64,000 nucleotides of DNA, taken from contig BGKB01000139.1 of NCBI GenBank assembly GCA_003116975.1, forward strand, positions 68,376-132,375, written 5' to 3'. The position numbers were made by a program, and so were the translations under genes. Under the pieces are notes generated by a model. That model searched no databases, had not been told where the DNA came from, and was given only the letters and a program-made list of their open reading frames with translations. Source of the stretch: Aurantiochytrium sp. KH105 (taxonomy: Eukaryota; Sar; Bigyra; Thraustochytrida; Thraustochytriidae). Below, piece after piece: positions 15,550 through 60,794 of the stretch. The number at the start of each line of letters is the position of its first letter. Position 1 is the stretch's first letter.

Positions 15550-16387
15550 TCAGATTGGTCCCAATCTAACCTTTACCTGACCTGCCTGCCCTGCCCCACA
15601 CCAGCTCCCTTTTATCCTTTTATAAATACTCTGCAAGAAGAAGATGCCGACGCAGAGACAGCATTTGTTTGTAAATGTCAAAAGAGAAATTTTTAAAATC
15701 TTTCAGTAGGTGGGAAGGCTTCCTTTCGAGGTCCAGGTCCAGGTCCAGTCCAAAGATATTCGGAGAGAGACGAAGTCAATCTGTGAGCCAACTTTTTGCA
15801 ACATGACTGGAAAGGCAAGCTAATTTAAATTTTTGTTTATTGAAATAAAAGGCCCCAGACGGAGCGTTTCGAGACAGCCGATGTCGGATCATCACTGAAC
15901 TGAGAGGAAAAGAAGAGCAGCCGCATGCTTGCTTGCTCGCTCGCATGGCCGGTCTATGTGTATAACGTACGCCTTGTCTGCTATCTCCTTTCCTCTATCC
16001 ATTTTGTTCCTGTGCGCACCCTTCTGTTTCGGTCGGTCCTGCAAGCGAGAGAGGGAGAGAGAAAGTTTGCGGGTGAGAAAGATTGATCGACGGGACAGAA
16101 AGACTGAGGATCACGTTCCTCACCACGATTTGCCAACCAAGTAAGCGGCGACAGCAGAACTGGCTAACGTTCTTCTTTATCATCATCATCATCATCATTG
16201 TCATCGTCTCCAGCTCCCTTTGTGATCTTTTTCTTTTCTTTTTTTCCATTCTCTCATCTCCATTTCTCTGTCCCAAAAGGAAGAAGAGAAAATGGAGACG
16301 GAAAAGAATGATAGCTGAAGCCCGATGCACTCACCATCAAGTCGGTCAGGTTGGGTCTCTCCTTTCCCAACCCCCCTACCACATGGT
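15550..16387. other. Convergent intergenic region
   Basis: Tail-to-tail 3' regions of dUTPase and SERCA. Contains a CAGGTC-type short repeat near 15730-15752, AT-rich stretches and a CAT/ATC triplet run near 16175-16200. No gene seen. Confidence 0.6.
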
Positions 16388-19300
16388 TTACTGCTCCTTC
16401 TTGGAGGCCTCAATCCTGGCGCGGCGCCTCCTAAGGGCCGAAGCGTTCATGATGCGTCCCACAAGCTTGAGCACCTCATCGATGAGGACCACGGGCGCCG
16501 AGTAAAGAATGACAAGGGCCCATTCCTCGAAAGAAAGAGGAACGACGTCAAACATGGGCGCCAGGGAAGGAACGTAGAGAATCATAAAGTGAAGCGCAAA
16601 GCTCGAGGCCATGGCCAGGAGCAGGTACGGGTTCACAAAGGGATGGGTGCCCGGAGCGAAAAGCGAACCATCCTCGCTAATGGCGTTGAGCGCGTTGAAC
16701 ATCTCAATCGTGACAAGAACCGAAAGACTCAGCGTCGAAGCCTTCTTCTTGCCCACTTCGCCAAAGTAGTCGCAGCCGGACACGTCGTAGGTGAGGCCGC
16801 CCGCAGTCCACGAGTTGGCCGAGAACTTGTGCGTGCCATCGTCAAGATGAAAGAGGTTCGTGTCCGGGTCGCACTTTTCCCAGTTGGAGAGATGGTGAAA
16901 GTCGACGCTCGTGTGGCCGTCCTTGGAAAGGTCAATGAGGCCGAGAAAGGGCTTCGAGCCAACACCATGCATGTACCAGGTGACAAAGACGCCAACAGTG
17001 GCGATACCGACATAGAGACCAACGATGATGTAACGAGCCATGACCCAGGTGGAAATGAGAGGCTCCGACTTGTCGCGCGGCGGCTTCGTCATGATGTCCG
17101 GGTCGCTCGGGTTGAAGCCAAGCGCCGTAGCGGGCGGGCCGTCGGTCACAAGGTTGACCCAGAGCAGCTGGATGGGCACCATACCTTCGGGGAGGCCGAG
17201 GGCCGCGACAAAGAAGATGCTAAAGACCTCACCAATGTTCGACGAGATCATGTAGCGGATAAAGGCGCGCATGTTATCGTAAATGGAGCGACCCTCCTGA
17301 ACACTGGCCACAATGGTGCTAAAGTTGTCGTCCGCGAGAATCATGTCCGAGGCCTCGCGCGCCACTTCGGTGCCGGCAATACCCATGGCCACGCCAATGT
17401 CAGCGAGCTTGAGCGCGGGGGCGTCGTTGACACCATCGCCGGTCATGGCCACCACGTTGCCCTGCTCCTTGAGAAGCTTGACAATGTGCTGCTTGAAGGC
17501 CGGCTCGGCACGAGAAAAGACCATGCCCGTGTTGGCGTTCTTGGCGAGGAGCTCGCGCTGGTTTTCGACGGGGAGCTTGCTAAAATCGTGACCCACAAAG
17601 GACTTGTCAGTGAGGTCCTCGTCCTCGCCAAAGACGGAGATCTCGCGGCAGACGGCCTCGGCGGTGATGCGGTTGTCTCCGGTGATGACCATGACACGGA
17701 TGCCAGCGTTGCGGCAGGCCTCCATGGAGGAACGGACCTCGGCGCGGGGCGGATCCTGCATGCCGACAAGGCCGACAAAGGTGAGATCCGTCTCGATCTT
17801 GGCAAAGTTGGCCGGGTCGCGAAGCTGGGCGGCGGCGCTGTGGTGGGTGCCGTTGTAGTCACTGAGAGCGCCAAGCTCGGACTTCATGGCGAAACCAAGC
17901 GTGCGCAGGGCCTTGCCGGCCATCTCGGCGATACGCTCCTGCATTTCCTTCTTGATCGCAGCAGACATTTCCACGCGCTTGCCGTCGTTGGTGAGCACGT
18001 GCGAGCAGCGCTCCAGGAGGGTCTCGGGGGCGCCCTTGACCAGGAGCTCGTTGGCAGACTGTCGGGTCTTGCCCGAGTTGACAATGACACTCATGGACTT
18101 GCGGTCGCGGGTGAATTCGAGCGTGGCCACGGCCTCGGCGCTCGCCTTGAGGCTCTCGTTCACGGGCAGCTGGCCCTTGGCGACAGAGGGCGAGGCCTTG
18201 CCGTTCGAGCCGAGGAGCTTCTCCACGAGAACCGTGAGGGCGGCTTCGGTGGGTGCGCCCACGTGCTTCCAGGTGCCCTTGACGAGCTCGACAGAGCTGC
18301 TGTTGCACACACTGGCGACAAGAGCGAGCTTTTCGAGCGCGGCGCCGCCGGCGTTAGACAATTGGGCCTCGCCGTCGAGCGGGTTGTAGGTGGCGCCCGA
18401 GACGGCGACCTCGTCGGTGCCCTTGCCGCCGGCGCCGACAACAATGACGCGGCGGACCGACATCATGTTGGTGGTGAGGGTGCCGGTCTTGTCACTGCAA
18501 ATGACCGTGGTGCAGCCGAGCGTCTCGACAGCGGGGAGCTTGCGGACAATCGAGTTGCGCGCCGCCATCTTGCGCGTGCCGAGGGCGAGGCACATGGTAA
18601 TGACCGTGGGGAGACCCTCGGGGATGGCAGCGACGGCGAGTGCCACGGCAATCTGAAAGTAGTAAATGGCAGCCTTGAAGTCGATGGACATGTTCTCGAG
18701 GTCGATAAACATGTGGTAGTTGATGAGCCAGACGAGAACGCAGATGAGGGAGATGACCCACTGGAGCATGTCGGAGAACTCCTCGAGCTTTTGCTTGAGG
18801 GGCGTCTTCTCCTCGGCGCGCTCGGCGGCGGCCGCCTGGAGCTGCTCCTGGATCTTGCCCATCTCGGTGGACATGCCCGTGCCGGTGACAATGCAGATGG
18901 CATGGCCGTTGGCAAGCATGGTGCCGGAGAAGAGCATGTTGCTCTTGGACTGGATCTCGCAGTCCTCCTTGTCGATTTTGTCCTCGGACTTGCTCACGCT
19001 GACGCTCTCACCCGTGAGGGCCGACTGCTCGGCACGCAGGGTGGTGGTCTTGAGCTCGGCCACGCGGCAGTCCGCGGGCACGCAGTCGCCGACGTTGAGC
19101 TCGATCACGTCGCCGGGGACGAGGTCCTCGGCCGGAAGGTTCGGCGTCCAGTTGCCGCCGCGACGGACGCGTGCCGTGGCGGCCTGCATGGCCTTGAGGG
19201 CTTCGAGACTCGCCTCGGCGTTGGACTCCTGGTACACGCCCACGATGGCGTTGAGGATGAGGATGAGCAGAATGACGCCGGACTCTACGAGGCTCTCGAG

Positions 19301-19582
19301 GGTGAGGGCCTTGCCGGCCTCGTACGCCTCGTACATGGCGATGAGCGCCGAGACCACGGCAGCCACGAGCAGGATCTTGACGAGCGGGTCATCGAACTGC
19401 TCGAGAACCAGCTCCCAGAACGAGCTCCCCTCCTCCTTGGGCAGCTCGTTCTTGCCAAACTTCTCCAGGCGCGCCTCCGCCTCGCCGTCCTCGAGCCCCT
19501 CCTCCACGGACGTGTCCAGCTCCTTCTCCACCGCCTTGACCTCGCGCGCCCACGGCGCGGCCATCAGCTCCACGGCCGCCAT
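16388..19582 (-). CDS. SERCA-type Ca2+-transporting P-type ATPase (P2A)
   Basis: 1064-residue ATP-driven pump that moves Ca2+ from the cytosol into the ER lumen. Near full-length identity pattern with SERCA: N-terminal GLNELP-like block ([11 protein letters not shown]), actuator TGES loop (ALTGESVSV), M4 motif VAAIPEGLP, phosphorylation site DKTGTLTTN with Asp364, KGAPE in the nucleotide domain, [13 protein letters not shown] hinge, and [13 protein letters not shown] in M6, which carries Ca2+ ligands Asn and Asp. The C-terminus is lysine-rich and ends KKEQ, a textbook KKXX dilysine ER-retrieval signal. ATGs at codons 1 and 7 are both possible starts. The opposite strand is open for over 1100 codons across the gene, a GC-bias artefact. 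Identity confident; ER location supported by family and tail. Confidence 0.98.
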
Positions 19583-21177
19583 CCTCGCCCGCGTTCCCCA
19601 GGGAGGGCCCGCCCGCCCGCCCGCCCGCCGCTCTGCCTGCCTGCCTGCCTGCCCACGCCTCGCGCGCCGCGCTCGCCCGCCGCCCGCCCGCCGCTCGCGC
19701 CGCCGCTCGCTCGCTCGCTCGCTCCGCGCGCCGCCGCCGCCTCGTCGCGCTCGCGTTCAGGTTCTGGATTCTGGATTCTGGATGCCGCCTCTGCTGGCTT
19801 GCTTGAAGACGCTCAGGATACGAGGCGCCGGCTGTTAGGCTGACAGCCGCGCGCGAAATCCCGCTCGTTCTGCGCCCGCTCGGTCTGCGGCCGCCGCGGA
19901 GCACGCGGGCACGCAGAAGCGAGCAGGGGCGGGCAGGGCAGGAGCGCCGCCGGCGAGCGGAGCAGGTTTTCGCAGCGGCCTCGCGGCGCTCTCTCGCTCC
20001 CTGTGGCGCCGCCTTTCTCCCTGCCTGCCTGGCCTGCCTGCCTGCCTGCTTGCTTTCCAGCCTGGCGCGACGCCGGGGGGCAGCGGCGGAGTCTCCGGCA
20101 GGCCGGGATATACCGTACGCGACGGTGGCGCGGCTTACGGTACCGCCCGACGCGCAGAGGCGTCGACGTGCGGAACGTCGAGGAGAACGAGTTCTGGAGT
20201 GCCGCGGCACGGGCTGCGAGGTCATCGGGCGGAGGTGCGTGGCGGGACGGTGGTTGATCTCGTTGGGGGTTGAGCTTGGTTTGGGTTGGCAAAGGAGCAT
20301 CCCGGGCGGGAAGAATCTGCTAAAAAAGAAACTGATGACTGGGATCTCTGGTAGGTAGTAGGCGTAGCTGGCAGTCTGGGGTAGGTGCAGCTGCAGCTGG
20401 CGCTGATCGCGATCTCGAGCGCCACACCAAGCTCGAACTGTTGCTCTCAGGCTCCTCACACAAACACACACATGTGCGCGCGTATCTTTTTGTCCTTCTT
20501 CGAGTTGTTCTTGTAGCACCGGCGTCGGCCCACCGCGCAGTCTTTAACCAGCTCCGCACGAGGAACGCAGGAGCGCTTGGTGCCGCGACGCACGGACGAG
20601 CTCTGTTGCCCTCCCCTCCCCGTTCCATGGAAAAGAGTTCAATCTTGATTAGTGTATAAGTCGCCGTCAAGAGCGACACCATCATTTCCTCATCTGCGCG
20701 ATCATGATGTTGTCCGAAAGCCGCTGGTCCCAAAAGGTGGTCCTGGTGCCTGACTCAAACGAGAAGCCCGGTAAGGAGCGAGCCTCCGTCATAAGCTGGC
20801 AAAGACTGGACCATGATAGTCATCTGGGAGGTCGGTCACATTGCGGCCTGCGGCCCCAAAAATTCCAAAGTGGTCTAACGGCTATAATGTAGGACCTCTT
20901 CAAATGCATGAGGAATTGGCTAGCAGCTTGCTTTGTCGAGCGCGGGAAAGCAGAGCGCACGGCACACGTACGCACATCGTGGCTGGCTGGCTGGCTAGCT
21001 GGCTGGCTGGAGTCCTTACCTCTTGCTTCTCGCCCTCGCCGGGTCGCTGGCAGTTGCTCGCTTGCTTCCCTCGCAGAGGGCGAACGCGAAAACACTTGCT
21101 CGTTCGCTGACGAGCTCGCTCGCTCGTTCGCTCACTCGTTCGCTCGCTCATTCTGGCGCAGCCGATCATTCACTACC
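19583..21177. other. Divergent intergenic region, SERCA to SMP-30-like
   Basis: Head-to-head spacer of 1.6 kb. GC-rich near SERCA with (CTGC)n and (CCCG)n runs at about 19615-19700, a (CTGC)n run near 20020-20050, a TGGC repeat near 20981-21010 and a (GCTC)-type repeat near 21112-21150. A tRNA-Glu-like half sits at 20864-20937. No protein gene supported. Confidence 0.6.
20864..20937 (+). other. tRNA-Glu-like fragment (probable relic)
   Basis: The 5' half matches the eukaryotic tRNA-Glu pattern: TCC start, then TGGTCTAACGGCTAT, which fits the Pol III A-box consensus. A partial acceptor complement CTTTG occurs about 68 bases downstream. No matching B-box, anticodon stem or T-arm is visible, so this is not an intact tRNA gene. 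It could be a decayed tRNA, a tRNA-derived repeat, or chance. Confidence 0.3.
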
Positions 21178-44758: not shown

Positions 44759-47700
44759 ATGGCCACCAACACAGTCACCTCGGGCACCCTCGTGCTCGTG
44801 AAGGACGACCAACATAGCTTTCTGCCCGCCCAAGTCGTGCGTACGATCGGCCCAGACGGTGGCGGAGAGGTCGAACTGCTCGAGGATGGGTACAACAACA
44901 ACGTCTCGACCAAAGACAACCCGAAAATGGCCATCGGCGAGAGCAATGTTACCACCGCCGACGCCTCGAACTCCAAGTCATCTGCCAAGCGCCGCGTTCG
45001 CGTAGAATCTTGCGAAAGCGTCGCCATGATGGACCCTGATACAGCGCGCGGCGTTGCCAACATGGTCGGTCTACGCGAGCTCAACGAGGCCTCTATCTTG
45101 CACAATCTTCGCGTACGTTTTGCACGAGACGAAATATACACAAGCGTAGGCTCCATCCTCGTGGCCATCAATCCTTTCAAGCTCCTCCCGCTCTACACAC
45201 CCGAAGTTCTCGACGCATACAGGAGTGGAGATGGGTCGCCCAGGGCGCCGCACGTGTTCCAAATTGCCGACGCCGCATACAAGGCGCTCCTCGCCAAGCA
45301 CTGCGATCAGTCCTGCATCATCTCCGGCGAGTCAGGCGCAGGCAAGACGGAGACAACCAAGCTGTTCTTGCAATTTCTCACCGAAGTGAGCAGTTCCGCC
45401 ACGCTGGCAACCGAAATCCCTGCCCAGATCGATGTGGAGAACGCCGAGGCTGACACCGACTTTGGCTTGCAGGAGCGCATCCTCCAAGCGAACCCGCTCA
45501 TGGAAGCCTTTGGTAACGCCAAAACCGTGCGCAACAACAACTCTTCGCGCTTTGGTAAATGGATCCAAATTAAATTCGACACCAAGCGCGGCGCCATGCG
45601 AGGCGGCCAGATCACCAGCTACCTGCTCGAGAAGTCGAGGATCGTTCACCAAGGTCCCGGCGAGCGAAACTATCATGTATTCTACCAACTCTGCAGCGCC
45701 GCAGCTAACGACGAGGAGCTCCGTCGCAGGACGCATCTCTCGGCGCCCGACGATTTTCACTACCTCAACCAAAGTGACACCTTTACCGCAGAGGGTATCA
45801 ACGATGAACGCGAGTGGGAGCGCCTTCTCCGTGCTCTCGAGGTCATCAAGGTCGCTTCCTCCGACGTAACGCAATGTCTCGACGCTCTTGCGGGCATTCT
45901 TCACCTGGGAAATCTTGACTTTGACGAACGCGACGCCAGCGGCGATGGCCAGGCCGTTGTGCGTAATGGCGCCACGCTGGATATTTGCGCCGATTTGCTT
46001 GGCGTTAATCGGTCGAATCTTGAGCGCGTTCTCACCACACGCAGCGTCGGAATGCGCTCTGTCATTTACAAGCCGTATACGCGCCAAGAGGCCCTCAACG
46101 CGCGCGATGCGCTCGCAAAAGCCATCTATTCCAACATATTTGATTGGATGATCGACAGGATCAACTGGTCCCTCGATCTCGTCTCTCCAAGTGCGAATGC
46201 CTCCCCCTCTCTGCGCAAGTCTGCCTCTGCATCGTCCTTGTCCGCCTCCTCTGTCACTGACCGCGCAATCGGTGTGCTGGATATCTTCGGCTTTGAGTGT
46301 TTTGCACATAACAGTTTCGAGCAGCTTTGCATCAACTTTTGCAACGAGAAACTTCAACTTCACTTCAATCAGCACATCTTCGAGCAGGAGCAAGCCGAGT
46401 ATGCGCGAGAGGGCATTGACGTCTGCAGCGTCAACTTCGTAGACAACCAGCCTTGCGTCCTTGCCCTCGAAGCGAGGTCAACCGGCCTCTTTGCCATGAT
46501 CGACGAGGAAATCTCTATTCCACGAGGCTCCGACGCTGGCCTTCTTAGCAAGGTACTGCAAAAGGCATCTTCGCACATTGGCCCGGCACCGGTAAAAGCG
46601 AAAAATGGAAGAACCTCTTTTGCTGTGCAACACTACGCCGGCGAGGTCATCTACGACGTCTCCGGATTTTTGGAAAAAAGCAAAGATGCTCTGCATGCCG
46701 ACCTCCAGGGTTGCATGGCGCTCTCAAGCAAGTCCTTGCTCCAAAGCGTCTTTGACATTTACGACGAGGCCGCCACGGCCACCAGCCCCATGAACGCCTC
46801 GTCTTCATCCCATATGTCCATCGCAAGCTCGGCTTCCTACGCGTCCTCGTCTCGATCCAGCTCGAAGGCGAGGCGAAAGACGCTTGGCTCCAAGTTCAAG
46901 GACCAGCTCTCGTTTTTGCTCGCCTCCATCAACGCTACCGAGCCCCATTTTGTGCGATGCATTAAACCCAATGCCGAAAAACAGGGGGATCTTTTTACAA
47001 GTCCCATGGTTCTTGCTCAATTGCGCTACGCTGGTCTGCTCGAAGTGTGCCGAATTCGCCAACAGGGTTTCCCCGTGCGCATTGCAACCTCAGAATTCGT
47101 GCATCGCTATGCGGCCCTCATCCCTGGAAGTACAAGCCATCAAGACACCAAGGCTTTGTGCAGTCAGCTCGCTGCCCGCCCCGAGCTCTTTGGCCCAGAA
47201 ACCCCCTGCTCCGAGGATGACTGGCGCGTGGGCAAGTCCAAGGTATTCATGCGGGCCCACCTTCATGCACAACTCGAGGCCCAACGCGAAAAGGCCGTCT
47301 TCACACACGCTGTAGGCATTCAGGCCGCAGCGCGAGGCTTTCTAGCGCGCCTCTCATGGCGCAGTATCCAAGTTTCTCTCGACGCCGTGGCGCAAGCCAC
47401 TTCGCGTAAAGAACTGGAGGCTGCGCTCCTCGCAAGCTCAGATCTTCCGCACGGAGGAGAGCATGTGCATTCTGTACAGAATGCAAAGGCGCGACTCCAC
47501 AAGCTCATCGAGCAAGAGCGCGCGGAGAGTCTTCTTCGCGAGGCGCTCGGGCGTCTCGAGGAAGCCGCCCTACGCACAGCCATCAAAGTGAGCCAAGCGG
47601 CCGGTCTTTCAACAACGAATGAGTACCTGCGGGAGGCCCAAGATGCTCTCTCGCGCGTCGAGGAGGCAACGCAAATGCAGATCGCTCTCAATGACGCCGT

Positions 47701-50700
47701 GCAGGCCCGGAACCTATCACAGCTGATCACACTTCTCGAAAGGGCAACCCAAGAACTCGGCATGACGCCAGATCAGCACGATGTAGTACGCCAGGCCACC
47801 ACATTACGCTCTCGACTGCAGGGTGAGGCAGACTTGCTTACCAGGCTCGACACGGTTCTCGCCACGGCCAAGTCTTCGGCTGAACTTGAAGACATCCTCA
47901 CAGAAATCACGCGATGGGGACTCGCAAGGACAGAAAACGTAGTCACCGCTCAAAAGGTCACCAAGCTGCTCCGTGAGGCGGAGCAAGCCTCCTCTGCCCG
48001 CGACTATGCCAAACTTCGCGCAACGCTAGCCGAGGACACAGGTCTTCCCAAGCAGAACTATCCCAGAGGTGTCGACAAGCTTCTCGCCCAGCTCGCCATC
48101 GAAGACGCCTTGCAGATAGCCGTGTCCGAAAACAATGTCGAAGCGATCCAGACGCTTCTATCCGGTCTCGACGCATCAGCTCCGCTTTCGCTCCGCGAAG
48201 CAGCCCGCGGTGCCCTTCAACGCAACAATGTGCTTATGCGACTGACAACGGAGAGCAGCAGCCCGGAGGACCTCAGCGCGGCCATCGCCGAGGCATTGGC
48301 CCTGCAAATGAACCCTGCAGACTATCCAGCCCTACAAAAGGCGCAACTCGACCTCGAGTCCAGCGGCGACGATGCCTTCAAGTTAGTCTCCTCGGTGTCG
48401 CGACTCACGCAAGCCCGAGATCTCGAGGGTCTTCGCGCGCTCCCGGGAGCCGCCAATGATGAAAACGTCCAGCGCGCAATTGCCCGAGTTCAGAGTGAGC
48501 TCGCTTTCATTGACGCAGTTTCACCTTGCGCAACCTTGCAGGAGATTGAGATCTGCTGTCTCAACTCAAATTGCGCACTTGCGGAACGCACCTTGGACGC
48601 GGCCAAGCGCATTGACTTTGCTCTCGCGTCCACGCATAGTCTCGAGCAGCTTGCAGATATGGATGCATTGGCAGACGAAGCGCACCTCCCGGGCATGGCC
48701 TCCGCTATCCGCGCTCTTCAGGACAAACGTAGCAGTGAGCTCTTTCTCGAGCGACGCCTACATGACGCCATGCTCGCTGAAGATCGTGAGCAAGCGCAAG
48801 CAATTTTGCAAGGCCTAAACCCGAGCAACAAGACCGCCCAAGAATGCAAACTCTGGCTCGACCGCAATACAGATATTGGTCAGCTCGTCGATGAGCTCAA
48901 AGATGCCATGGGCGCGCGAGATCTCGACAAAATCAATGGCCTGGTCGATCTGTTGCTGCGACAAGGTGCTCAATTGGACCCAAGCTTGGAAAAGGAACTG
49001 CAAGTTGCACGCACACAGCTCCAAGCCCAGCGCAGAAGCTGCGCAGAGGTCTACGAGGAGACACGCGCCCTGCAGAGTCGTCTACAATCACCAACAAGCC
49101 TTGCCCAAGAGGAGCTTGAGGCTCTGCGGAGCGCGCTGCAGGCTTGCAACAAATCTGATGCCCTCGAAATCGTGCGAGGAAAGTCTCTCTTGAGCCAGCT
49201 TGAGGCCCAGCTCGAAGTTCAGGCTTCAATGCAATCCGCCCTAGACGCCGACCGGTACGAGGACCTCAAGAATGCACTTGAAATTGCTCAGGAAAAGGAG
49301 CTGGATCATCTTGACCTCGTCGCGCGCATTCGAAAGGCGCTACGTGTGCGCGAGCGCGAGCGACGCGCCAAGCAGCGCTCAGCCTTGGATGCAGCATATA
49401 ATGAGTCGCACGAGAGCGTCTCTGGCAAGGGTAATACAACCTTTGACGAGGAGCACAAAGACGATGCCGAGGGGGCATGTGACGGCGGGCAAAGAGATTT
49501 GCCGCGCAGCGACGAAGAAAGAGCTGAAAGAGCAGCCCGAGATCGACAGCTGCGCGAGAGCCGCAGGGATCGCGCGCGTCAGACGCGCTTTGAGTTCGTC
49601 AATTTTCACAAAATTCGCTCAGACGAGGATTTTGCACGTGGTATTTTCCTGCACAAGTCGCGTACGATTCGCCTCAAATGCACCTTTCAGCCCACGAGTA
49701 TCTCCCGATCTCTCTTGGACCATGGCAGCGACAAGGAGCTCAACAAAGTAGCCGTTCGCATTCACAAAGCCATCCTTGGCTATTGTCGCGACAAAGCCAT
49801 GTCGTTTCCTGCGACCATGGCGCAGGACATTCTCATCAAAGGACTCGACATGTGCGAGATTATTGACGAGATTTATGCGCTCCTGTGCAAGCATTTGACG
49901 CATAATCCGAGACCCGAGTCTGTGGGTCGAGGCTGGCAACTGGTGTGCATGTGTGTGAGCACGTTTCCCCCGTCTGCAGAGTTTGAACCCTACCTTCTGA
50001 ACTTTTTCCTTTCTCACTGCGAAGTGCCGGGTTTGATTGGGAACTACGCGCGCTTTGCGTTGCGCCGGCTTGAAGGTATTATTCACAGCGGCCCGTCTGG
50101 CTTTGTGCCAACCGTCGCAGAGATTCAAGCATACAATGACCGCCCACCTGTTTTAGCTCGCATCGAGCTCGCCGACAACTCCATTCTCACGGATGAGCTC
50201 CCGGTGACACCGGACCTTGACGTTGGCAAAGTCTCCGAGCTTTGTGCGCATTTTCTGGGTCTACAGGACCACAGGGCTTCCTTTTTTGGTCTCGAGGTAA
50301 ATGGTCTTGTGCCGCTGCGACCGGTCGACTTTATCGGAGATGCTTTTATTCGTGCATTGCGCGAAAAGACAGAGTTTCGGCTTGTCTTTAAGCGGATCGT
50401 GACGCTCCGCTTCAACGGTCTCGACGATCCCAGCGAAGATGATCACATGTACAACCGGCTCGTGTACATGCAAACGCAGCGCGACTTTGCGCAGGGCAAG
50501 TATGTGCATGACGTATCTCGTGCTGATGTGCCACGTCTCGTGGCAATGGCTCTCGCAGTCGATCGTGACAACTCGGTCTTTCAAATGTCCGCAGAAGAAC
50601 TCTCGAAGATCCTCCCCGACGCTTACATTCATGAGCCCGATATTCCCGAAGGAATGCGCGCCTTGGCGCAAGAAGTGAAGCAAGTGGCTCCTTCGGTAAC

Positions 50701-51043
50701 TAGCGAGGATCCAGCACAGTTGCAGCTCGCGTTTTGGGACCACATCCGCCCTTTTCGCAGTTACGGGACGCTCTCATTCCCGACCACTGCGGGCCAGGGA
50801 GACCTGGTCGTGAGCGACGCCGGCATCGAGTTTAGCGGCCGCACCCTGCCCTTTGAGCGTTTGCACCGTTGGGGCGGGAACGCCTCCAAATTCACCTTGG
50901 TCATCTGGAACCCTGAACAGACTGCCGAAGAGGAAAAGATTACGTTTGCGACGCCCTACAGCGTCCATATTGGCGGCGCTCTCCTCAACTTCATTACTCG
51001 TATCATGGAGAACTCTGAGCCCGACGACGAAGCCAGTGCTTAA
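44759..51043 (+). CDS. Unconventional MyTH4-FERM myosin heavy chain
   Basis: 2094 residues in one exon; the ATG at 44759 is the first in the frame (GGCCATGG). An N-terminal SH3-like stretch (about 8-45) precedes a complete motor: P-loop GESGAGKT (190-197), switch I NNNSSRFG, switch II DIFGFE (508-513), actin-site region HFVRCIKPN (about 731) and RYAGLLEVCRIRQQGFPVR. One IQ-like motif (GIQAAARGFLARLSW, about 853-867) follows. Residues about 870-1560 are an unusual helical repeat region. The tail has a MyTH4 domain (about 1610-1780) then FERM lobes (about 1794-2090). MyTH4-FERM myosins act in filopodia, phagocytosis and membrane-cytoskeleton links. The class within this supergroup cannot be given by eye. 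ATPase residues look intact, so an active motor is expected. Confidence 0.96.
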   Translation: MATNTVTSGTLVLVKDDQHSFLPAQVVRTIGPDGGGEVELLEDGYNNNVSTKDNPKMAIGESNVTTADASNSKSSAKRRVRVESCESVAMMDPDTARGVANMVGLRELNEASILHNLRVRFARDEIYTSVGSILVAINPFKLLPLYTPEVLDAYRSGDGSPRAPHVFQIADAAYKALLAKHCDQSCIISGESGAGKTETTKLFLQFLTEVSSSATLATEIPAQIDVENAEADTDFGLQERILQANPLMEAFGNAKTVRNNNSSRFGKWIQIKFDTKRGAMRGGQITSYLLEKSRIVHQGPGERNYHVFYQLCSAAANDEELRRRTHLSAPDDFHYLNQSDTFTAEGINDEREWERLLRALEVIKVASSDVTQCLDALAGILHLGNLDFDERDASGDGQAVVRNGATLDICADLLGVNRSNLERVLTTRSVGMRSVIYKPYTRQEALNARDALAKAIYSNIFDWMIDRINWSLDLVSPSANASPSLRKSASASSLSASSVTDRAIGVLDIFGFECFAHNSFEQLCINFCNEKLQLHFNQHIFEQEQAEYAREGIDVCSVNFVDNQPCVLALEARSTGLFAMIDEEISIPRGSDAGLLSKVLQKASSHIGPAPVKAKNGRTSFAVQHYAGEVIYDVSGFLEKSKDALHADLQGCMALSSKSLLQSVFDIYDEAATATSPMNASSSSHMSIASSASYASSSRSSSKARRKTLGSKFKDQLSFLLASINATEPHFVRCIKPNAEKQGDLFTSPMVLAQLRYAGLLEVCRIRQQGFPVRIATSEFVHRYAALIPGSTSHQDTKALCSQLAARPELFGPETPCSEDDWRVGKSKVFMRAHLHAQLEAQREKAVFTHAVGIQAAARGFLARLSWRSIQVSLDAVAQATSRKELEAALLASSDLPHGGEHVHSVQNAKARLHKLIEQERAESLLREALGRLEEAALRTAIKVSQAAGLSTTNEYLREAQDALSRVEEATQMQIALNDAVQARNLSQLITLLERATQELGMTPDQHDVVRQATTLRSRLQGEADLLTRLDTVLATAKSSAELEDILTEITRWGLARTENVVTAQKVTKLLREAEQASSARDYAKLRATLAEDTGLPKQNYPRGVDKLLAQLAIEDALQIAVSENNVEAIQTLLSGLDASAPLSLREAARGALQRNNVLMRLTTESSSPEDLSAAIAEALALQMNPADYPALQKAQLDLESSGDDAFKLVSSVSRLTQARDLEGLRALPGAANDENVQRAIARVQSELAFIDAVSPCATLQEIEICCLNSNCALAERTLDAAKRIDFALASTHSLEQLADMDALADEAHLPGMASAIRALQDKRSSELFLERRLHDAMLAEDREQAQAILQGLNPSNKTAQECKLWLDRNTDIGQLVDELKDAMGARDLDKINGLVDLLLRQGAQLDPSLEKELQVARTQLQAQRRSCAEVYEETRALQSRLQSPTSLAQEELEALRSALQACNKSDALEIVRGKSLLSQLEAQLEVQASMQSALDADRYEDLKNALEIAQEKELDHLDLVARIRKALRVRERERRAKQRSALDAAYNESHESVSGKGNTTFDEEHKDDAEGACDGGQRDLPRSDEERAERAARDRQLRESRRDRARQTRFEFVNFHKIRSDEDFARGIFLHKSRTIRLKCTFQPTSISRSLLDHGSDKELNKVAVRIHKAILGYCRDKAMSFPATMAQDILIKGLDMCEIIDEIYALLCKHLTHNPRPESVGRGWQLVCMCVSTFPPSAEFEPYLLNFFLSHCEVPGLIGNYARFALRRLEGIIHSGPSGFVPTVAEIQAYNDRPPVLARIELADNSILTDELPVTPDLDVGKVSELCAHFLGLQDHRASFFGLEVNGLVPLRPVDFIGDAFIRALREKTEFRLVFKRIVTLRFNGLDDPSEDDHMYNRLVYMQTQRDFAQGKYVHDVSRADVPRLVAMALAVDRDNSVFQMSAEELSKILPDAYIHEPDIPEGMRALAQEVKQVAPSVTSEDPAQLQLAFWDHIRPFRSYGTLSFPTTAGQGDLVVSDAGIEFSGRTLPFERLHRWGGNASKFTLVIWNPEQTAEEEKITFATPYSVHIGGALLNFITRIMENSEPDDEASA

Positions 51044-53843: not shown

Positions 53844-56800
53844 CTACATCGCTTGCTCGTGGGAAACACCCTCTTCCTCCTCGATGACTGCACCGGGCAA
53901 CGAGGATGACAGCCTATCGTACGATTTGGCGTGCGACATTTCGGTAATCACCCGCTCGGACGTGAAGATGACGGACGCAGAGCGGCTTGTTGTGGAACCC
54001 AGACGCGGTTGAGGGCGCACTTTCATGCTGGCAGTGTTGCTGCGTGACATGGTCGAACTGACCATGTTAATTTTGGAAAACGACTGCTTCAAGGTCTCAG
54101 AGCTGTACTTGGAGTCCTTGCTGCTGCTGTTCATGAGCTGATTTTGCAAAAGTCGCTGCGTTGATGCATCGGACTGCGGTGGGGTACGGAGGACACCTGG
54201 GGCGCTCGTGTCTTTGCCCTTTTGATAAAATGAATAGTTGGTCATGACGTAATCTCGCTGTTCTGTGGCTTCCGGACAGAGACGCGCCAAGACGTCAAAG
54301 AGCGGAAACGCAATGTTATTAATAAATCCGAGCTGCATTTGCGGGTCAAAGCTGGCCATAAAGGTGGTCACTGGGACGCCCACGTGTCTCTCGAGCTCGG
54401 TCTGCCCAATGAATTCTTCCGAGATTCGGGTGACCCAAAGCTTGTACGTCGGTAGCTCTCGCGCACAGTTCGAAACGTCGGCGCACTTGATAATAAGCTC
54501 CATCATCATGGCCCCGGCATCCTTGTCCATATCCACGAGATCGGAGAGCGAAGGCGACGAGCTTGCAGTCGAAAGCGAGCAGCGACTGTGTTGCAAGTCA
54601 CTCGCATGTGCAGAGGCCGAGGCCAGCAGATCCATCCGTCGATTGAGCTTATCAACAAACGTAGTGTGGTTTTCCACCGAGGTGGAAAGCACGAGCCTCG
54701 TCACGAGTGGCTGAATTGTTGTTCTCACTTGATCCAGCTCTCCCTCCAAAAGAGCTTCAATCAAAGGTCTCGCTGTGGCCGCATGGAAATTCTCCAGCAC
54801 AGGGTCTGCAAACTGCTCACAGAGGGCGTTTTCTGTTGCTTTGAGAAAAGACGCATTTACGCCGGGATGTCCAATGTCGTGCACAGCAGCAGCGAGTAGC
54901 ATCGCGAGACGGTCGAGCTTGCTAAACTCTGGCGAATCACTATCCCGTGCTGATCGCCTGGCTGACAAAGTACCCATTTGTGAGTCGTCGCTGCCGTCCT
55001 CGTCTTCATTCGTCAACGGCATGCCGGTCATTGACGCTGAGAGAAAGTCCTGTGCTGAGCTGCTCGTCTGGACTTCAGCTTCCTCGCCATCGGAACGAAG
55101 CACCAGCTTTCTCTGGTGAAGCTGAAGCAAGAACACATGGCAGGCCTGCACGACATCGGCAGCATGCGTGCTGTTATGATATGGGTTCGCAGGATACAGA
55201 CGCTCGACTTCTTGTGCAAATCGATCAACCATCGAGATGTTGAACTCGAACAGCTCGTAAAAGCCGTGCTTGAGGAAAAGAAGTCGTAACATCATGTGCA
55301 AGGGCGTTCCACACGCCACTCGCTCAAACGAAAAGATGTCAAAGCTCCATGCGTCAAGCTGGAGCGCAAGCGCCGACAACGCGTCACGCTCTTGAAAGTT
55401 CATTCGGCGCGACCACGTCTCCACGGCAATAGGATCCGAGTAAATGAAGAGCGCGTGCTTGACGGTATCGCTGGAAACTCGGCGGCGCTTCCGGTCCTCC
55501 GCACTTTGTGTATTTCTGACAATGCGCAGCTTGAAGGAGGACGATTTCCTTCTGTTTTCCAAGTGCGAATCAGCACTTGCGGCTCTTGACATTGGCGGGT
55601 TGCCCTTTTGCGCCGCTTGTTGGGGCGTGGTAGCAGCCTGGACCTTGCTTGAATTCGAGCTCCGCGTCTTGATGGACCAACGCATCCCTCGCATTCGAAG
55701 CCCCACACTGCTGTTGCTGTTGCGTTGCGTCTCATTTTGGCGGTCTGACCCCGAAGACTTCACGTGCTGGTTTTGTTTTTCCGCTTGTTCTACATCGGGA
55801 TTTTGGCGTAGAAACGCAACGAGGTTCTCCCGAGACGTTGACTCCATGGGAGCATTTTCGAGACATTCGTCCCACTCCTTGTCCTGGTCGTTCCCAGTTT
55901 TGCTAAAAACAATATTCATGGAAGGCATGCGTCCAAGCACGAGCGCTGATGGGCCACGCATCAGCCCTGACTTGGGCCTAGCGGTCTTCGCGTGCGCAGT
56001 CTCTTCTTCCTGATGAATCGGTGCTCGCATGCACTTGCAGCTTGGCCATAATAGACACGAGCGCATCATCTGTGTCCACCATCGGTTTCCCTCGATCCCA
56101 CGTACATCCCCTTTCTGCATACCTTCCTTTTGTCCACCAAGAAATTGTTCGTGATAATGAACTTGCCCACTCGTTTCAGGCATTGCCTTTCGATGCTGCT
56201 GATTCCCTTTGGTTTGCATCGAATCTTGTCCATGCTGCTGCATGTCAAGAAGAATCGCGTCGTTGTTGTTGTTGTTGGGCGCTGCTTCATTTACATTTAA
56301 TGTCGATCGGATACTTTGCGCACGAAGTATGCTTGTTTTGCGTGTTGCCTGGCGAATCGAGCGAAGCGTTTCCACGAAAAGCTGGGTATTTGCATCTTTC
56401 ATTGGAAGACCTCTCTGGAAAGGTTCACGACCGCTGCTCATGGAACCAGAGTCGCGTCTTGTGGAGCCTTGGAAACTCTGCGCAAGCACATCGCCGAGCA
56501 TGGACGACGGCCGTCGTCGCACACTCGCCCACAGCTGCGACTTGCTCTCGCTCGATGCCTCGCGGCTGCTTTGATGGAGTCGGGGCATGGATGACTTTTT
56601 CCTTTTCATGCTCTCAGTGCTACTTGGCGATTGCACAGTATTTTCTCCGTCAAGTCTGACGGGAGGAAGTCGGATCTCTAATGCATTTTTCAAGGCGTCA
56701 TGGTAGAGATCATGCGCCCCCTGCAGTTGCTTCGCGCCGATCATGTGAAAGAGAATCATAGCCTGAACCTGCAGATGCGTGGGGTCCTTCGCGTTCTCTG

Positions 56801-59800
56801 AAACGGACTGTCGCCGCAAGGATTGCTTCCACGTTTCCAACACCTGAATGACTGTCTGATGCAAGCGCTTTCGGTGGGCGAGTAGCATCTCTCGATAGAC
56901 TTTGCGACGCATGATGACATCGCAAAAGCTAAAGCAGCGCTCTCTTCCCCGCCTTGACTCAAATGTATCCCCGGCAGAAGAATCAACGCGGAAGTGCGGG
57001 CAGTGGTCTTCGTGTCGGAGCGCCGCGCTTGCGTTTTCTTCGGTGTACAACGGTCGATGTACCTCCTTGATGACGCCAATCTGCAGAAGTCGCTGCAGCC
57101 GTGTCTCAAGCTTGAAGAGAACGCCCTCATCGACTGCCACGGATGGAGGCTTCTTGCCCTTCGAAGCCTCAACACTTGGCATGATTGTCACATCTGGGTC
57201 TACCTCCTTGAAAGGGTAGATTGCGACAAGCATGCCTAAGTCGAAGTGCAGACCAAAGGGGCCCAAGCCATTGGCAAGAATACTCGCGCAGCGAAGGACG
57301 ATCTTTTCCGCAACGCTCAGTCGATCCAGGATCTGGGCTTCCCATCGCGTGTTGCAGCAGTCGCTGCAAATGGAGAGAGCATGAAGCCTCTGCTTGAAGG
57401 ACATGGGTACCAGTCGAACTTTCTCTTCGGGGAGGATCATGTTCTGAGACGGTCGCTTCGCGGTCAAGCGGATCCCGCTGCTTGACCGTCTCAAGACTGT
57501 GCCTTTGACGTTGGGATTTCCCTGGCTTGCAAGACCTTCCACGAAGCCTGCGGCACACAATGCGTCAAGACATGCAATGAGACGGTCACGGTTTCCTCCA
57601 ATGATGCGGTACAACGTTTTGGTGAGACCTGCTGAGACTTGCGTAACCTGAAAGTGCGACAAGATCAAAGCGTTGGCCTCTAACAGTGTTAACGGCTGGT
57701 GTTCTACGACAATCGTTTGCATGCTTTGTACAAAGCCCACATAGCTTTCCTCAAGACCAGCTGACTTAGGCCGCCGTGCCACAGAATGCGGCGGAATGAG
57801 CGAAACAAGCAGAAAGACTCCCGAGAAGGGAATCGCTCGCTGGAAGATCGATGACCTTCTACGCGCGTGCGAACTATCTCGTTGCGAGGCTTTGCGTTCC
57901 ATTGAATCGGCGCCCGATACCCCACTCAACGACTTGTTTGAACTTTGCGCGGAAACGATGCTGTTGGCTCCCTCGAGCTTGGTGCCCATGTCCTCCTTCT
58001 CTGCGTTATTCTGTCCATGTACAACCTCCATATTGGCCTGGTAGGCAGGTCGTGTATGCCGGTCCCGCTGATGAGAGAGCATGTGTTCCAAGATTCGACG
58101 GGTGAACTTCCAATCCATGGGCGGCATATTATGCGCATCTTCAATGGTGAGCACGAGCGAGAAATTCGCCGCAACCATCGTCTGCAAAAGTGCGCTGATA
58201 GCGTCGATGACTTGATCAAAGTCATCGTCAGAGAAAGAGTACTCCGTCTCGTCGGGCTGAAACGTTGCTGCGGCGTATGCCATGGGCCAGGTAGAGAAGC
58301 AGGGATGCGCCAGTACGGAGTCATCCACCGCAACTTCTCGGACCTTGGCGAGTGCCACAACGCCTTGGAGAATTCGGCGCCAAACTGGCGCGCCTTGGAG
58401 AAGCGAATCTCCAAGAAAGGCATTGGTACGAAGCAGAAGCGTATGAGATAGCTGACGCGTCAAATGCTGGATCCACTTTGGCGCTTGCATTCCGCGGCCC
58501 GAACCAGGACTGCTCCGGCCAGAACTGTAGTGAGCTCTTCCTGAGCCGCCTTGAAAGCCCTTGGCTGCAGCATTGAAGGCTCGCCCCGAGCCCTGAGAGC
58601 TTCGACTCGACCCATGCATGGACCGATTGGACGAATTTCTAGACGAGAATGTCAGCGGGACGCCCATCGTCGGCAATCTAAAGTCATTGTGAAGCTCCAT
58701 GATGGAAACTATCTCGTCATTGAGCACATAATAGGGTTCTGCATTTCGATCCTCCCATAATTGCATGCACGTAAGATCCATTGTTTCTCTCGCTTCGGCA
58801 GCGTTTGTGCAGAACATCGTTGCCGCGGCCGGGTGCTTGCCATCAGAGTTGAAGAAATTGTCCACGGCAAACAAGACATCAATGTACCGAAGCCGCCACG
58901 TTTCAGCGACGGGTGGAAGCTCACGGGCCAGTTTTTGGCTGGAGGAAATTCGTCGAAGGAGGGCGCGCTCATTGTGCAAGGCGGCCCATCCTGGCTGAAA
59001 GCAGCATGTGGCGTGCGTCTTTCCCTTGAGCATGATTTCTCCCACGGGGTGAAAGACAAAGTCGTGCACCAGTTCTTTGCAAGCGTTGCGGGTGCTCTCG
59101 TCACATATAATGTTTCCGATGTAGCCGACACTCTTGCAAAGATTCGCGTGTGGATCCTTGGCTGCTTGCATGAGTCTTGCGCTGACATTAACGCTATCTC
59201 CCAGCAGAGTGTACTCCTTACGGGACCCACTTCCCACGGGACCGCAGAGTGCAGTGCCTGTGGTAACCCCAATGTACCTCTTGCCGCGAGGGTCGAGACC
59301 ACGCAGAACACGCACAATGCGCAACGCGAAAGCGACACCCCGCGCAGGGTCTGCAAGATTGGAGAGCGGGGGTAGACCAAGAGCTACTAAGACCGTCGTG
59401 CCCTTATCATCCACAATAAATTTGTTTACGCTCGCCTCGACGCGGTACGCCTCCCGCTGGACTCCTCGAAAAATATCTTGCACGCGCTGCAAGCGTTTTG
59501 GAGTGGTGGCTACGAGGTCGTGCGGATCAAGGCCAAGATTGACAAATATCGTCGTCACTTCGCGAACCTCGGTCATCCAGCTCAGATGTGTCTGCAGAAA
59601 GGGAATGATGGAAGCTGGAACGTAGCGTTGTAGCTGTTTGATTTCGTGACTGCTTGATAAGAGAGGGCGCTTGATTGAAATATTTCGAACGCGCTTCGTG
59701 TTAGAATTCACGGCGGTCGATCCCGATTTGAGTTTCGTTCCAGAAAAACTGTCGCTGACGAGAGCCCAAACTTCGGGAGAGACAATCGTTTGACCTGGGC

Positions 59801-60794
59801 TGCACTGGTTTTCTCCTGCAAAAGCCTGCATCAAGGCCTCGCCGCAGGGCACAATCTCGACGCGATCCCTTTCACCGCCCACGTGCAAGATCGAGGCCCT
59901 GCCCACACCAATGCCCATTTTTACAGAGAATTCAACGCCATCTGCAAGTTCTGCGCCGTGCAACTCCTCTTGTAGCTGAAGGGCGGCTTGGGTGGCTTTC
60001 AGAGCCATGAGCCTGCGGTCGAGTTTACCATTGCGGTCGTGCTCCGCTTGCCAAAAGATGATCATGGCGTCTCCTGCGAATTTCAGAATATCGCCTCCTC
60101 CTTTGCTGAGAAGCTTGTTGATGCGCTCAAAATATCTGTTCAAAAAGAATCCAAGCTTTTCGGACCCGACACTGCCCTCCTCGCTAAGACGTTCGGTAAG
60201 TTTGGTGAAGCCGCTCACGTCGAGGAAGATGGCCACGGTTTCGAGTTCTTGGTTGAAAGGAGTGAGGTCCCAATCACAATCTACTTCATGAAGCATGCGT
60301 TGCACAAAGTCTACCAGGTGCACAGCTGCGAACTCTTGTACGATGCGAGCGCCCATGCGAGGTTCGGAGGTGGTCTCGCTTTCCGTGCTTTGCATGAGCG
60401 CGGAGCGTCTCCTGGTCAATGTCCGGCTCTTCGTGGCCGGCGTTGGCGCGTATGCGACCGGCACGGTGACATCTCCGCTAGGAGCGCCTGCCGAAGCCTC
60501 TTCCTCCTCCTCCTCCTCCTCCTCCTCCTCTTCACTGATTCCCCCATCGTTTGAAGCCATCGAGGACGATGTGCTTCTTCGCTCCCTTGGCTGCCGAGGC
60601 GTGTTACCATCCTCAACCAGGTAGGACTCGCGTTTTTCCTGCTCGCCGCCGCCTCCTTCTCCTCCTGCTGCTTCCGACGAAGTCGTCGCGTGCGAGCCGC
60701 CCGCGCTCCCTGGCGGGGCGTCCGTCGCCTTCGCGTCGCCTGGCCCGCCGCCCGCGCTGCGCCGGGTCGTCGCTCCCGGCGAGGCGGCCTCCAT
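53844..60794 (-). CDS. Soluble adenylyl cyclase (ADCY10-like) fused to cyclic-nucleotide phosphodiesterase
   Basis: 2316 residues, one exon; first ATG at 60794. Acidic, Ser-rich N-terminus, then tandem class III cyclase domains matching soluble adenylyl cyclase. C1 (about 180-330) has metal ligands Asp192 (FLDVSGFT) and Asp242 (GGDILKFAGDA). C2 (about 385-600) has Lys458 (VNKFIV) and Thr529 (KEYTLLG), the Lys/Thr pair expected for ATP selection. A STAND-like region follows (about 680-1200), with a Walker-B-like strand SLVLTIEDAHN but no clear P-loop. After a long Ser-rich linker a PDE domain occupies about 1790-2190: HNSTHAADV (His1873, His1877), VHDIGHPG (His1972, Asp1973), KCADVSN (Asp2106) and the invariant Gln2154. 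No membrane segments. It should both make and hydrolyse cAMP. Synthesis and hydrolysis are inferred from intact residues. Confidence 0.95.
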   Translation of the reverse strand: MEAASPGATTRRSAGGGPGDAKATDAPPGSAGGSHATTSSEAAGGEGGGGEQEKRESYLVEDGNTPRQPRERRSTSSSMASNDGGISEEEEEEEEEEEEASAGAPSGDVTVPVAYAPTPATKSRTLTRRRSALMQSTESETTSEPRMGARIVQEFAAVHLVDFVQRMLHEVDCDWDLTPFNQELETVAIFLDVSGFTKLTERLSEEGSVGSEKLGFFLNRYFERINKLLSKGGGDILKFAGDAMIIFWQAEHDRNGKLDRRLMALKATQAALQLQEELHGAELADGVEFSVKMGIGVGRASILHVGGERDRVEIVPCGEALMQAFAGENQCSPGQTIVSPEVWALVSDSFSGTKLKSGSTAVNSNTKRVRNISIKRPLLSSSHEIKQLQRYVPASIIPFLQTHLSWMTEVREVTTIFVNLGLDPHDLVATTPKRLQRVQDIFRGVQREAYRVEASVNKFIVDDKGTTVLVALGLPPLSNLADPARGVAFALRIVRVLRGLDPRGKRYIGVTTGTALCGPVGSGSRKEYTLLGDSVNVSARLMQAAKDPHANLCKSVGYIGNIICDESTRNACKELVHDFVFHPVGEIMLKGKTHATCCFQPGWAALHNERALLRRISSSQKLARELPPVAETWRLRYIDVLFAVDNFFNSDGKHPAAATMFCTNAAEARETMDLTCMQLWEDRNAEPYYVLNDEIVSIMELHNDFRLPTMGVPLTFSSRNSSNRSMHGSSRSSQGSGRAFNAAAKGFQGGSGRAHYSSGRSSPGSGRGMQAPKWIQHLTRQLSHTLLLRTNAFLGDSLLQGAPVWRRILQGVVALAKVREVAVDDSVLAHPCFSTWPMAYAAATFQPDETEYSFSDDDFDQVIDAISALLQTMVAANFSLVLTIEDAHNMPPMDWKFTRRILEHMLSHQRDRHTRPAYQANMEVVHGQNNAEKEDMGTKLEGANSIVSAQSSNKSLSGVSGADSMERKASQRDSSHARRRSSIFQRAIPFSGVFLLVSLIPPHSVARRPKSAGLEESYVGFVQSMQTIVVEHQPLTLLEANALILSHFQVTQVSAGLTKTLYRIIGGNRDRLIACLDALCAAGFVEGLASQGNPNVKGTVLRRSSSGIRLTAKRPSQNMILPEEKVRLVPMSFKQRLHALSICSDCCNTRWEAQILDRLSVAEKIVLRCASILANGLGPFGLHFDLGMLVAIYPFKEVDPDVTIMPSVEASKGKKPPSVAVDEGVLFKLETRLQRLLQIGVIKEVHRPLYTEENASAALRHEDHCPHFRVDSSAGDTFESRRGRERCFSFCDVIMRRKVYREMLLAHRKRLHQTVIQVLETWKQSLRRQSVSENAKDPTHLQVQAMILFHMIGAKQLQGAHDLYHDALKNALEIRLPPVRLDGENTVQSPSSTESMKRKKSSMPRLHQSSREASSESKSQLWASVRRRPSSMLGDVLAQSFQGSTRRDSGSMSSGREPFQRGLPMKDANTQLFVETLRSIRQATRKTSILRAQSIRSTLNVNEAAPNNNNNDAILLDMQQHGQDSMQTKGNQQHRKAMPETSGQVHYHEQFLGGQKEGMQKGDVRGIEGNRWWTQMMRSCLLWPSCKCMRAPIHQEEETAHAKTARPKSGLMRGPSALVLGRMPSMNIVFSKTGNDQDKEWDECLENAPMESTSRENLVAFLRQNPDVEQAEKQNQHVKSSGSDRQNETQRNSNSSVGLRMRGMRWSIKTRSSNSSKVQAATTPQQAAQKGNPPMSRAASADSHLENRRKSSSFKLRIVRNTQSAEDRKRRRVSSDTVKHALFIYSDPIAVETWSRRMNFQERDALSALALQLDAWSFDIFSFERVACGTPLHMMLRLLFLKHGFYELFEFNISMVDRFAQEVERLYPANPYHNSTHAADVVQACHVFLLQLHQRKLVLRSDGEEAEVQTSSSAQDFLSASMTGMPLTNEDEDGSDDSQMGTLSARRSARDSDSPEFSKLDRLAMLLAAAVHDIGHPGVNASFLKATENALCEQFADPVLENFHAATARPLIEALLEGELDQVRTTIQPLVTRLVLSTSVENHTTFVDKLNRRMDLLASASAHASDLQHSRCSLSTASSSPSLSDLVDMDKDAGAMMMELIIKCADVSNCARELPTYKLWVTRISEEFIGQTELERHVGVPVTTFMASFDPQMQLGFINNIAFPLFDVLARLCPEATEQRDYVMTNYSFYQKGKDTSAPGVLRTPPQSDASTQRLLQNQLMNSSSKDSKYSSETLKQSFSKINMVSSTMSRSNTASMKVRPQPRLGSTTSRSASVIFTSERVITEMSHAKSYDRLSSSLPGAVIEEEEGVSHEQAM
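60501..60533. repeat. (CTC)n coding a poly-Glu run
   Basis: Triplet run inside the cyclase-PDE gene, giving about 12 consecutive Glu in the N-terminal disordered segment. Confidence 0.95.

Follow-up and report, generated by a model that had tools for sequence, protein, structure and literature searches.

A gene of the thraustochytrid Aurantiochytrium sp. KH105 encodes, on one polypeptide of 2316 amino acids, a tandem cyclase of the soluble adenylyl cyclase (sAC) type followed by a class I cyclic-nucleotide phosphodiesterase (PDE). The gene lies on the reverse strand of a 64,000-nucleotide stretch of contig BGKB01000139.1 (C139; positions 68,376 to 132,375), called the window hereafter; the genome assembly (GCA_003116975.1) comprises 76 Mb in 367 contigs. 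From its sequence, the window protein is probably one signalling enzyme, a self-limiting local source of cyclic AMP (cAMP) with both ends active. The C1 and C2 halves of the cyclase would form a single ATP site; between the cyclase and the PDE lie a STAND remnant lacking the P-loop and, after it, a long linker of low complexity. The protein would thus make cAMP locally and remove its own product. Its net output would be the balance between the cyclase and PDE sites, with regulation acting on either end, and phosphorylation of the linker could possibly set that balance. A precedent for dual activity on one chain is MpCAPE of Marchantia, a protein of 1610 amino acids with an N-terminal PDE and a C-terminal class III adenylyl cyclase (AC), for which both activities are reported (PMC5159850). 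The genome also holds cyclic-nucleotide effectors, as this reading would have it: at least 154 cNMP_binding matches were found, alleles and tandem domains being counted apart, several of them in tandem in one frame, on contigs that include C25, C1, C66, C7, C42 and many more.

The reading frame and its two enzymes

Translation of the reverse strand yielded the 2316 amino acids and a stop with no internal stops. The chance of a stop-free run of this length is about 1e-42 at the base composition of the sequence, and the remaining five frames of the same interval hold 48 to 91 stops. A codon score, for which two further long open reading frames (ORFs) of the window served as the training set, was best in the coding frame, among three, in 30 of 31 segments of 75 codons each; the exception begins at amino acid 708. 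An upstream in-frame extension of 43 codons (to 60923) begins with GTG, and the first segment, which contains it, scored 0.00. There are no N bases within the gene. Together with another gene built in this order, described below, these features lead us to reject a chance frame or an assembly artefact. It is also very improbable that an assembly join, or two adjacent genes taken as one, produced the arrangement. Such a join would fit the finding of the locus on one contig alone and the weak coding score in parts of the low-complexity linker, but a single stop-free frame with the favourable codon score crosses that linker, and the second gene of the same order, kept as coding sequence, occurs on two contigs and is conserved between both, which makes a join unlikely here.

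A preliminary description of this sequence had proposed that a cyclase and a PDE share one polypeptide and had called for a search with the Guanylate_cyc and PDEase_I families. The open frame and the domain matches confirmed the proposal: Pfam gave 163.3 bits for PDEase_I (cut-off 24.8; best stretch, amino acids 1956-2178) and 48.3 bits in all for Guanylate_cyc, in two stretches (cut-off 21.9), both halves thus standing above cut-off. The ten residues that the description had named (Asp192, Asp242, Lys458, Thr529, His1873, His1877, His1972, Asp1973, Asp2106 and Gln2154) were all found at those positions.

The two cyclase domains, described earlier as ADCY10-like, were recovered as such by phmmer against the PDB, which matched C1 and C2 of ADCY10 to the intervals given in Table 1 (E 1.8e-30 for the whole match). 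The window protein was aligned with ADCY10, seven other sAC proteins of the same genome and 34 bacterial sAC relatives; the latter came from 58 loci, of which 37 were taken and three with stops (L060, L092 and L095) were removed. All seven catalytic positions considered (D192, K238, D242, K458, T529, N536 and R540) carry the residues of ADCY10, from which their roles are taken. The tandem C1/C2 arrangement with the metal Asp pair, the adenine Lys and Thr, the Asn and the Arg is that of the sAC/ADCY10 type, and among the eight own-genome sAC proteins aligned the window protein alone has both adenine-selecting Lys and Thr. An AlphaFold (AF2) model of amino acids 170-610 built from 28 sequences reached a mean pLDDT of 86 and a pTM of 0.87, and its best 24 PDB matches were human sAC in every case. 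The active site of the cyclase, as predicted from these comparisons, is complete.

Concerning regulation of the cyclase, Lys95 and Arg176 of ADCY10 form its bicarbonate-binding site. The Lys is kept in the window protein and the Arg176 column holds Phe; in its two nearest own-genome relatives this column reads Phe and Ile. Since Arg occurs there in 5 of the 34 bacterial rows and in none of the eight own-genome proteins, the bicarbonate site does not define the wider sAC family. Judged from these residues, bicarbonate sensing by the Arg176 route is unlikely in the window cyclase.

At the carboxyl end, phmmer against the PDB returned PDE4D, PDE4C, PDE8A, PDE7A, PDE1 and PDE3 chains among its matches, which bears out, with the Pfam score, the C-terminal class I PDE of the earlier description. 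The domain shows the H-N-x-x-H and H-D-x-x-H-x-G motifs (the latter as HDxxHPG), the Glu, the Asp of CADxSN, the purine Gln and the Phe clamp expected of PDEase_I; besides the residues already listed, these include His1976, Glu2001 and Phe2157.

The middle of the protein had been called ATPase-like, a label that did not hold. No match to the Walker A/P-loop pattern (G-x4-GK[ST]) was found in the window protein, and the P-loop is present in all seven other own-genome sAC proteins fetched and aligned. The STAND-type NTPase with a P-loop that follows their cyclases is represented here by a Walker B-like stretch, LVLTIED, and a retained winged-helix end, which hhalign aligned with a profile of four own-genome sAC proteins (probability 86, E 4.6e-6). 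Because only these two elements were recognised and the P-loop is absent, we take this region for a STAND remnant, probably without the ability to bind ATP. We nevertheless class the cyclase as sAC-type, since the P-loop defines the STAND module and not the cyclase.

The protein kinase A (PKA)-like motif R[RK]x[ST] occurs 15 times in the window protein against 3.25 expected, and none of 500 shuffles gave 15 or more; 13 of the 15 lie in the STAND-like region and the linker, and none in the cyclase and PDE segments. Within the linker (55395-56669, reverse strand), a short Trp/Cys-rich stretch at about amino acids 1570-1590 (WWTQMMRSCLLWPSCKC) is a possible membrane or lipid-attachment site.

Several observations weigh against a self-limiting enzyme with both ends active. 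The first concerns the PDE itself, in which the TD-motif Asp is replaced by Ser2039, a departure from class I PDEs. Among the 12 rows compared at this column, ten from the same genome and two human, 11 have Asp and one, the own-genome PDE L017, has Glu. This Asp contributes to the water shell around the second metal, and because Ser replaces it PDE activity may be reduced. The window PDE also forms a long branch in the PDE trees, and its single-sequence AF2 model is too poor (pLDDT 41) to show its geometry. The possible control by phosphorylation is weakened as well: R[RK]x[ST] stands above expectation in six of the seven other own-genome sAC proteins (0, 0, 9, 11, 16 and 19 of 500 shuffles reached their counts), five of these six have no fused PDE, and the seventh has no motif; enrichment extends to an unrelated ORF of the window, an ankyrin-containing one, with 10 motifs against 3.6 expected. 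As unfused sAC proteins and this ORF exceed expectation, the excess may be compositional and is a lead only. Finally, no second copy (allele) of the locus was found with three stretches of C139, all three of which returned themselves alone, apart from distant partial matches given by one of them; we explain this by a haplotype that was collapsed or is missing. For the whole window (1-64000), a collapsed haplotype, the loss of one copy and a hemizygous region are the alternatives.

The main rival explanation is that the PDE binds nucleotide but scarcely cleaves it, being a weak or dead pseudo-PDE that serves as a cyclic-nucleotide-binding regulator feeding back on the cyclase. Ser2039 at a position where Asp is almost invariant, some 60 inserted residues ahead of the HD motif and the long branch would suit such a domain, which nevertheless retains its His/Asp metal ligands, Glu and purine Gln. 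Deviation at the TD-motif column is shared with L017, and the PDE of the second fusion protein keeps the Asp yet has Ser for the purine Gln. On these residues we consider a pseudo-PDE unlikely, though not negligibly so, and hydrolysis by the window PDE likely but not certain. Given the lack of the bicarbonate-site Arg and the Ser at a conserved Asp position of the PDE, neither regulation nor PDE activity is to be assumed.

A second fusion gene and the origin of the pair

Of the cyclase and PDE genes that the searches brought up in this genome, most are present as near-identical pairs on two contigs. A PDEase_I family search gave at least 25 places; by our reading these make up 11 genes, ten paired and one, that of the window, single. 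In one of these pairs, on contigs C38 and C160, PDEase_I stands in a single 2646-codon frame with an sAC-type cyclase (2639 amino acids from the first ATG). The order in this paralogue is sAC C1-C2, STAND ATPase, PH and PDE, with two Guanylate_cyc matches and 279.6 bits for PDEase_I; an AAA_16 match that includes the P-loop scored 23.1 bits, under the Pfam cut-off of 32.6. Its adenine-site Thr is changed to Ser. The proteins of C38 and C160 are 99.1% identical and the copies are read as alleles. They differ by 26 nonsynonymous and 160 synonymous changes (ratio 0.05), of which 7 and 45 lie between STAND and PDE (0.05) and 2 and 17 in the PDE. Because this ratio is low, linker included, the comparison shows the sAC-STAND-PDE arrangement to be genuine and maintained as coding sequence.

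In the 43-row cyclase tree, the window protein, the paralogue and a third own-genome sAC (C173/C20) form one clade (100/99). The branching order among the three is not settled by these trees: the window protein pairs with the paralogue in the 9-row tree (41/30) and the paralogue with C173 in the 43-row tree (88/20). Cyclase places kept outside the trees were C138/C69, C79/C91, C77/C143, C30/C87, C32:127 kb/C195, C21/C5 (L042) and a 70-codon frame of C23; the contig flanks of the window (L043 and L044) likewise did not enter the comparisons. The two PDEs, on the other hand, were rejected as sisters by the approximately unbiased (AU) test in a 13-row tree (p 0.005) and in three 10-row trees made with three alignment methods, which leave out L031, L017 and L018 (p 0.0135, 0.0093 and 0.0067). 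No branch of the PDE trees was starred, and the window PDE groups weakly with the own-genome PDE L011 (bootstrap 57-64). By our reading of the alignment, a segment ahead of the catalytic core is 3-4 residues longer and ends in PL in six own-genome PDEs including that of the window, and this longer form is absent from the paralogue PDE and four others.

Since the cyclases share one clade while PDE sisterhood is rejected, we tentatively suggest that the same small sAC clade captured a C-terminal class I PDE twice, from different PDE lineages, which would show repeated selection for uniting a cAMP source with its sink on a single chain; in our judgement this falls just short of an even chance. 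Two captures, or the replacement of one PDE, is at any rate a serious reading of trees that sample one species of the group. A single ancestral sAC-PDE fusion that was duplicated, with fast divergence of the window PDE and no second capture, is also plausible though short of probable. It would account for the place of both cyclases in one clade of three and for the C-terminal position of both PDEs, and it could draw on the long branch of the window PDE and on the unsettled bootstraps of two PDE trees out of four. Against it stand the rejection of sisterhood in all four trees and the length difference ahead of the catalytic core, which puts the two PDEs on opposite sides. Moreover, the PDEase_I search gave no PDE match on the contigs of the third clade member (C173/C20), and the PH region was not found in the window protein, whose middle gave no match to the PH-containing region of the paralogue by profile comparison.

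Searches for relatives of the PDEs outside this genome covered viral and prokaryotic collections and have no bearing on other protists. No relatives were found in the viral contig collection for the window PDE (one pattern match) or for ten own-genome PDEs (67 pattern matches), nor in prokaryotic genome contigs for three own-genome PDEs (92 pattern matches). The 58 bacterial sAC loci gave no PDE match among six-frame ORFs of at least 60 amino acids.

Other features were noted in the window and the genome. A large myosin with a MyTH4 domain is encoded in a single open frame at 44759-51040 of the forward strand. Two long frames overlap on opposite strands, at 16325-19840 (forward, 1172 amino acids) and 16388-19582 (reverse, 1064 amino acids), the former without a Pfam match. 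On contigs C72 and C155, a frame matching the polyunsaturated fatty acid synthase model PfaA (930 bits, cut-off 1010) is adjacent to and divergent from a second, partly matching frame; of 14 controls from bacteria and archaea, 11 also gave matches to this search, below the cut-off. Taken with the size of the genome and its long intron-free frames, this is compatible with a thraustochytrid.

Table 1. Location of the sAC-PDE gene of the window, its parts, and the second fusion gene of the genome
Feature	Position	Strand	Basis
Whole reading frame (sAC - degenerate STAND - linker - PDE)	53844..60794	-	translation, Pfam, phmmer, codon score
Cyclase domain C1, aa 179-350	59745..60260	-	Pfam, phmmer, alignment; metal Asp192, Lys238, Asp242
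Cyclase domain C2, aa 387-561	59112..59636	-	phmmer, alignment, AF2; adenine Lys458 + Thr529, Asn536, Arg540
Walker B-like stretch LVLTIED, aa 880-886 (STAND-type module without P-loop)	58137..58157	-	motif inspection
Winged-helix end of STAND module, aa 1156-1375	56670..57329	-	hhalign
Linker of low complexity holding 7 R[RK]x[ST] motifs, aa 1376-1800	55395..56669	-	composition, motif count
Class I PDE domain, aa 1801-2205	54180..55394	-	Pfam, phmmer, alignment
Ser2039 at TD-motif Asp column	54678..54680	-	PDE alignment
Second sAC-PDE fusion gene	L034:675-8591 (C38; second copy C160)

Known AC-PDE proteins and significance

The CAPE proteins (COMBINED AC with PDE) of streptophytes resemble the window protein in carrying an AC and a class I PDE on one chain. 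They are described with the PDE N-terminal and the AC C-terminal (PMC5159850, PMC8115329), whereas the window protein has the tandem sAC-type C1-C2 first, then the STAND remnant, and the PDE last. This order, opposite to that of CAPE, had been pointed out in the preliminary description and was borne out. That description had also considered that the fusion may be independent of plant CAPE, which is likely, since cyclase layout and order both differ from CAPE as described (PMC8115329). The purine-Gln position, Ser in the paralogue, is given as Thr or Asn in plant CAPE (PMC8115329). CAPE-like proteins with a class III AC and a class I PDE have been reported from the Saprolegniales, namely Saprolegnia (including Saprolegnia diclina), Achlya and Thraustotheca, and were judged independent of plant CAPE, from which they separate in both domains (PMC8115329). 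Membership of the window protein in this group seems improbable: AC and PDE do share a single stramenopile protein in both cases, but by their description the Saprolegniales proteins have the CAPE domain organisation, PDE first and AC last (PMC8115329), which sets them apart from it. The preliminary description, right on the one polypeptide and its order and mistaken on the ATPase-like middle, had missed these proteins as well as the second fusion of the same genome.

With ADCY10 and the bacterial sAC relatives, the window protein has in common the C1-C2 pair and the active site, and with its own-genome sAC relatives a STAND-type module, here a remnant, after the cyclases. It differs from ADCY10 in the added PDE, the lack of a P-loop and the Phe at the Arg176 column. 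Cyclic-nucleotide enzymes are also fused in the oomycete bigrams GPCR-AC and GPCR-PDE (PMC6033456); there, AC and PDE are described on separate proteins, each with a G protein-coupled receptor (GPCR), and Pfam found no receptor domain in the window protein. Neither a fusion of sAC-type tandem cyclase, STAND remnant and last-placed PDE nor two such fusions with unlike PDEs in one genome was found in the open-access literature searched, mainly listings. Since the Saprolegniales proteins are already in print (PMC8115329), the presence of an AC-PDE protein in stramenopiles was known before; what sets the window protein apart is an sAC-STAND-PDE build in which the PDE comes last.

The window protein is an example of an sAC-type protein without the P-loop and without the bicarbonate-site Arg. 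The local confinement of cAMP is a long-standing question, and a source and a sink on one chain make it directly testable. Recurrence of the pairing in plants, in Saprolegniales and, perhaps twice, in this genome would be an argument that selection has acted on the pairing as such.
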